A stretch of DNA of 40,844 bases from Balneolia bacterium (GTDB lineage Bacteria; Bacteroidota; Rhodothermia; Balneolales; Cyclonatronaceae), in the NCBI GenBank assembly GCA_022565795.1, contig JAIUMA010000028.1, forward strand, positions 1 to 40,844, written 5' to 3'. The translations under genes and the position numbers were made by a program. Within the stretch, counting starts at the first letter, position 1, and every line of letters starts with the position of its first letter. Positions 13,127-16,541 of this stretch are shown here, piece by piece. A model generated the notes under the pieces. It made no database searches. It was not told the origin of the DNA and saw nothing but the letters and a program-made list of their open reading frames with translations.

Positions 13127-14038
13127 ATGACCAAGCCAGATGACTGCCTGTTTGTCCTGAACCCTAATGCCGGCGGTGGAAAAGCCGGTCGATTCTGGGA
13201 GGTCATCACGAGTGAATACCCGTCTGTGGCAACATCAACTCTTAAGTGCGACAACCATGCGAGTCTTGCCAGGAAACTAAAAGAAACGCTTAAACCGAAC
13301 ATAAAAAGGGTAATAGCGGTGGGGGGAGACGGCAGCGTGCACCAGCTGATAAATGCTGTGATTGCCCTGGGACTTGAGAGTGAGCTTGCTGTTGGGCTTA
13401 TTCCTGCCGGAAGCGGCTCTGATCTCAGACGAAATCTCGGGATACCGAATATCAAGGATCCGGCTGCTCTTTTCCAAAGGGTGATGCGCTCCGAGACCCG
13501 CTCCACTGGTTTAATTAAAGTCGAACACGATGAGGGTGTCTTTTATTCAGTAAACATCTGCTCCGTTGGCATATCTGCAAATGTGGCTGAAGCAGTGAAC
13601 AGCGGCGTTTCCGGTAGTAATAAAAACTATATACGCACAGCTCTAAAACTTCTTCTGCATTGGAAAGGGGTACACGCCGGGACTAACCTGACTGACGCCG
13701 CCATTGATCCGGAAACATTCGATCTGATACTTTTTGCTAACGGAAGCTATTTCGGAAACGGCATCCAAATTATGCCGGGGGCATCGGTTTTCGATTCGGA
13801 GATTCGATTGCTCATCGTTCGAAAGCAACAATTACATAAACTGATGACCGCCATCACTCTTCTTCCCTTCGGAAAACACACATTCCTGTCGGGCATTGAG
13901 CAAAACACACTCACCGGCACAGCAAAAATCGCTGCTGCCGTAAACAAAACCCTTTTGATGGAGGCCGATGGCGAGCTTTACAGCTCCGGCTCGTTTCGGA
14001 TCAGTCTGGCCCCGGATGCCATCAGGCTTCTTTGCTAA
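13127..14038 (+). CDS. Diacylglycerol/sphingosine-kinase-family lipid kinase (DagK/YegS type)
   Basis: 303 residues with the DAGK catalytic motifs in order: NPNAGGGKAGRFW (about 11-23, nucleotide loop), VGGDGSVHQLINAV (GGDG phosphate-binding site), IPAGSGSDLRRNLGIP (substrate loop), and the C-terminal MEADGELY, whose Asp/Glu are catalytic in relatives. Length and motif spacing match soluble bacterial YegS/DgkB proteins, which phosphorylate diacylglycerol or related lipids. The lipid substrate is not deducible. It is coupled to the unknown gene upstream (one-base gap). It ends 270 bp before the convergent Bmp gene. Confidence 0.9.
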   Translation: MTKPDDCLFVLNPNAGGGKAGRFWEVITSEYPSVATSTLKCDNHASLARKLKETLKPNIKRVIAVGGDGSVHQLINAVIALGLESELAVGLIPAGSGSDLRRNLGIPNIKDPAALFQRVMRSETRSTGLIKVEHDEGVFYSVNICSVGISANVAEAVNSGVSGSNKNYIRTALKLLLHWKGVHAGTNLTDAAIDPETFDLILFANGSYFGNGIQIMPGASVFDSEIRLLIVRKQQLHKLMTAITLLPFGKHTFLSGIEQNTLTGTAKIAAAVNKTLLMEADGELYSSGSFRISLAPDAIRLLC

Positions 14039-15692: not shown

Positions 15693-16541
15693 TTACTTCT
15701 CTGATTTTTCATTTTTGGAATGGTCAAAAAAGTGTACATCCCGCTGCGGAAATGGAATGGTAATACCGTTTTCATCGAACGCAGCTTTAATTTTCTCCAT
15801 ATTTTCCCAATATATAGGCCAGAAATCGGGTACCATAGCCCACACGCGGATTGACAAATCAAGACTGCTGTCGCCGAAGTTGGTAAACAATACCACCGGA
15901 GCAGGATCCGGCAAAATACGCTCATCCTGTTTCAAAACATCGAGAACTATCTGCCTCGCCTTTGGAATGCTGCTGCTGTAGCTTATTCCCACCTTCATCT
16001 CTACACGACGACGGTCTTTTTTTGTAAAGTTTACCACTTTCGAGTTAGCCAGCTGTCCGTTCGGCACGGTAATTACTTTATTATCGAACAGCTTTAGCTC
16101 GGTGTACAGGATGCTGATGTTCTCAACAAGGCCCACATCTTCGCCCCATTGAATTACATCTTATACCTTAAATGGCTTGAACGTAAGGATGATGACACCA
16201 CCTGCGAAGTTAGAAAGGCTTCCCTGAAGAGCAAGACCAATTGCCAGACCACCAGCACCAAGCAGGGCAATAAGCGAAGTGGTTTCGAAGCCAAGAATTC
16301 CCGCAACAATAATAATGAGAATCAGCTTCAGAATGAATGAGCTAAGGCTTTTAAGAAAGGATTTAAGTGATGGCTCAAACTCATACTTATCCATCACTTT
16401 CTCGAAAGCCAACATCATATAGCGAACAATCCGAAAACCAACGAACAGAATAATTACGCCTGCCAGAATGCTGAGACCAAACTCAACACTCAGCTCAATC
16501 ATTTTTTCATATATAAATTCCAGATTTAAATCTTCAAACAT
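15693..16541 (-). pseudogene. mscS: MscS-family mechanosensitive channel interrupted by an in-frame TAA
   Basis: The frame from ATG 16541 to the stop at 15693 would encode 282 residues, the size of E. coli MscS (286). Codon 127 is TAA (16161-16163). The first part has three membrane helices and the pore helix TM3 (ALLGAGGLAIGLALQGSLSNFAGG, up to FKPFKV). The second part resumes in the same frame with DVIQWGEDVGLVE, VPNGQLANSKVVNF and the full beta and alpha/beta cytoplasmic domains. The stop replaces a position that is usually glycine (FKPFKV-G-D; FRPFRAGE in E. coli). No shift of frame is needed, and the rest of the gene is intact. It is either a recent nonsense mutation, a base-calling error, or recoding. 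If the stop is real, a 126-residue fragment without the cytoplasmic cage is made. Confidence 0.88.

Follow-up and report, generated by a model that had tools for sequence, protein, structure and literature searches.

A single in-frame stop codon in an otherwise undecayed MscS-family channel gene of a Balneolia bacterium: a probable very recent nonsense mutation

Introduction

Among the closest described counterparts of the gene studied here are the small-conductance mechanosensitive channel MscS of Escherichia coli (e.g., PDB 2oau) and MscS 7dlu, in which transmembrane (TM) helices are followed by a pore helix, a beta domain and a C-terminal alpha/beta domain. Two reports indicate how far such a protein can be reduced. 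The miniature MscS of Trypanosoma cruzi has no cage but retains the beta domain (PMC12334622), and removal of the last 20 residues of E. coli MscS already impairs its recovery from inactivation (PMC4440785).

Many in-frame stop codons in bacterial genes have been argued to be tolerated, with the stress laid on stops shared by orthologues (Belinky et al. 2021, PMC7918605).

Here we describe an MscS-family gene in a window of 40,844 nucleotides, the whole stretch of DNA that was analysed, from a Balneolia bacterium (contig JAIUMA010000028.1, G000:C28 in our set; draft genome of 3.59 Mb in 145 contigs). The gene has the full domain order of E. coli MscS but differs from it at one position: where Gly133 of the E. 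coli protein aligns, it carries an in-frame TAA, and its own orthologous group has Glu, Asp or Asn. Like the single-stop genes of Belinky et al. (PMC7918605), it combines one in-frame stop with an otherwise constrained frame; those authors, however, lay weight on stops whose position is shared among orthologues, whereas here the stop is private to one genome. An orthologue in Balneolia bacterium T1Sed10_100 (PWID01000113.1, a MAG and apparently the same contig as G002:C126) is 87–88% identical and lies in the same neighbourhood, but it is intact and reads GAA at codon 127.

Results

The MscS gene occupies positions 15,693–16,541 of the minus strand, a strand that the sequence-only reading of this DNA had not given. 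It runs from an ATG at 16,541–16,539 to a terminal TAA at 15,695–15,693 and would encode 282 residues if codon 127 were read through. The sole interruption is that codon, a TAA at 16,163–16,161 between the motifs FKPFKV and DVIQWGEDVG. The open part ahead of it (16,161–16,541, minus strand, stop included) encodes 126 residues comprising TM1–TM3, and 155 open codons follow it (15,693–16,160, minus strand).

Pfam domains were found on both sides of the stop. MS_channel_1st and MS_channel_1st_1 lie ahead of it (PF21088, PF05552), MS_channel_2nd (residues 108–174) spans it and MS_channel_3rd comes after, the part of the frame past the stop being recognised by PF00924 and PF21082. With codon 127 written as X, PF21088, PF05552 and PF00924 all scored above their curated cut-offs, which accounts for the TM helices, the pore helix (TM3) and the beta domain. 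The C-terminal alpha/beta cage domain (PF21082) was recognised in the conceptual full-length protein with E=1.1e-19 and is absent from the 126-residue ORF.

In alignment with E. coli MscS, the conceptual protein was matched over residues 18–274 (13–274 when MscS 7dlu is taken in as well), and the stop paired with residue 133, a glycine located just past the pore helix. This match, together with 87% identity to a syntenic sister gene, shows that the interrupted frame did not arise by chance. The minus-strand translation and the Pfam domains on either side thus bear out the earlier description of an MscS gene intact except for one in-frame TAA at codon 127.

Among 60 relatives, the best match was the syntenic gene of genome G002 (87–88% identity), an intact orthologue at the same locus. 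The neighbourhood is conserved as well, with an HD gene divergent upstream and a BMP-type lipoprotein gene and further genes downstream. As a side observation, a diacylglycerol-kinase-like neighbour (13,127–14,038 of the window) is only 52% identical to the copy of the sister (locus L099), against 72–92% for the other flanking genes compared, which may reflect fast evolution or replacement.

Codon 127 is GAA (Glu) in G002, and a single G→T change separates this sense codon of the sister from the stop. The next four orthologues have GAT, AAT, AAT and AAC (Asp, Asn, Asn, Asn). Nearly all of the homologues that are more distant carry glycine, as does E. coli MscS. A stop at codon 127 was found in no other orthologue examined, which makes the TAA private to the present genome; of the stops flagged within the matches of other relatives, those in loci that were extended turned out to be terminal. 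The sequence-only reading had placed a family glycine exactly at codon 127, which is wrong for the orthologous group and applies to the more distant homologues. Its proposal to compare close relatives did return a sense codon in the sister, but GAA rather than a glycine codon. An ancestral glycine codon (GGA→TAA, two changes) is not supported in view of the sister's GAA and the Asp and Asn codons of the next orthologues.

Past the stop, 41 columns are invariant in 14 homologues, and none of them (0/41) is altered in the interrupted gene; the claim that the 155 codons keep both frame and conservation therefore stands. In this part we counted 3 private residue changes in the lineage of the present genome vs 3 in the sister. 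Ahead of the stop the corresponding numbers were 5 and 1, one of the 5 being an alignment artefact at the start codon. Only changes that three outgroups allowed us to polarise were counted as private, and the age bound drawn from them is therefore approximate.

Since pairwise dS had reached or nearly reached saturation and was unfit for dating, we turned to private residue changes and a neutral simulation. For the 3′ half, the simulated probability of at most 3 residue changes and no stop fell from 0.46 to 0.06 and then to 0.005 as neutral drift rose from 0.01 to 0.02 and 0.03 substitutions per site. The lesion is thus no older than about 0.02–0.03 substitutions per site, longer neutral drift being excluded by the simulation, within the approximation stated above. 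At fourfold sites, the gene and its sister differ at 20 of 51 positions (39%) in the 5′ half and at 42 of 51 (82%) in the 3′ half. Set against the simulated limit, this divergence means that any loss of constraint is confined to a small terminal portion of the branch. The fourfold divergence (measured against L009) is higher past the stop, although the later half is the more conserved in protein; past recombination or uneven synonymous constraint may be involved.

Seven genes with PF00924 were found in the genome, and the other six carry no stops. No recognisable MscL gene (PF01741) was found in the genome; with seven MscS-family genes present, osmotic protection may rest on MscS-type channels alone. 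A close orthologue of the interrupted gene is absent from the congeners G004 and G005, and the HD locus of G004 has other genes in its place. Absence from two congeners and the presence of six other open MscS-family genes suggest that the genus can do without the gene.

When the window and 400 kb of the genome were scanned by codon usage, eight candidate same-frame interruptions emerged. On inspection, only the MscS gene looked like one gene cut in two, and the other candidates had the look of neighbouring genes or of antisense frames. Of the 33 clear genes of the window, 15 end in TAA, a normal use of this codon as a terminator. This use, and the fact that no other interrupted gene turned up in about 440 kb, led us to reject a genome-wide recoding of TAA. 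No stop-reading anticodon was present among the tRNAs recovered, an incomplete set. The 100 bases past the stop folded no better than shuffled sequences (z = −0.97) and no Rfam family matched near the stop, so that an RNA structure stimulating readthrough and a known RNA element were both rejected.

Discussion

In general, our results are probably best explained by an ordinary event, a very recent nonsense inactivation of a redundant MscS-family gene, present either as a pseudogene or as a strain polymorphism. What we observed directly is that the sequence as given carries the stop, that the frame is intact and undecayed, that the sister has a sense codon and that paralogues are present. Judging by the sister, a single nonsense substitution would have changed GAA to TAA. 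Ribosomes would then halt after 126 residues and release a membrane-only TM1–TM3 fragment with neither the beta nor the alpha/beta cytoplasmic domain. Such a fragment is expected to be non-functional or degraded, and the loss would be tolerated thanks to the six other open MscS-family genes. The stop may be fixed or may be only a strain polymorphism.

It had been predicted that a truncated product would keep the pore and lose the cytoplasmic cage. This is correct, as TM1–TM3 are retained, but the whole beta domain is lost too. Since the beta domain is kept even in the miniature MscS, and since a loss of 20 residues already impairs the recovery of E. coli MscS from inactivation, a functional 126-residue channel appears unlikely.

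Some observations temper the pseudogene reading. A lack of excess change past the stop is expected of a very young lesion, but equally of a gene that is no pseudogene, and the frame would look just as undecayed with a base error or with functional readthrough of the gene. Without a recognisable MscL, this bacterium may also depend on MscS-type channels more than most bacteria do.

The main rival to a recent pseudogene or polymorphism is a single-base error in sequencing, assembly or binning consensus, with the gene intact in the organism. We regard it as possible, though clearly the less likely of the two. The sister codon is one base away, neither a second lesion nor decay follows the stop, and the stop is known from one draft assembly in 145 contigs. 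Against this, the genome is scored as 100% complete with 0.16% contamination, and the lack of any other clearly interrupted gene in about 440 kb indicates that the consensus is not generally poor. The earlier reading had offered a very recent lesion or a base error, and both the undecayed post-stop half and the single G→T difference from the sister support that pair.

Its third option, that the stop is read through, gained no positive support. Readthrough frequent enough to yield a working full-length channel would account for the frame and constraint kept past the stop, and other bacteria are reported to have in-frame stops in genes under constraint (PMC7918605). However, the constraint on the 3′ half predates the stop and, being inherited, does not speak for readthrough; moreover, the stop is not conserved among orthologues, TAA serves as a normal terminator, the recovered (incomplete) tRNAs include no suppressor, and neither an unusual downstream fold nor an RNA family was detected. 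We therefore consider this explanation very improbable. The same holds for its variant in which low-level readthrough of the TAA would keep the channel functional but limited in expression, in a bacterium that lacks MscL.

A split into two genes, one for a short TM1–TM3 protein and one for a cytoplasmic part with its own start, one or both functional, is hardly credible: a 147-residue ORF does open with GTG at 16,136, but this start sits within the beta domain, the arrangement is seen in no relative, and pore helix and beta domain remain connected even in the smallest described MscS (PMC12334622).

The gene adds to the known single-stop genes a further case in which sequence alone does not tell pseudogene, polymorphism and error apart. 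Annotations should mark it as a single interrupted gene and not as two short proteins. As six paralogues remain, the osmotic biology of the bacterium is probably little affected.
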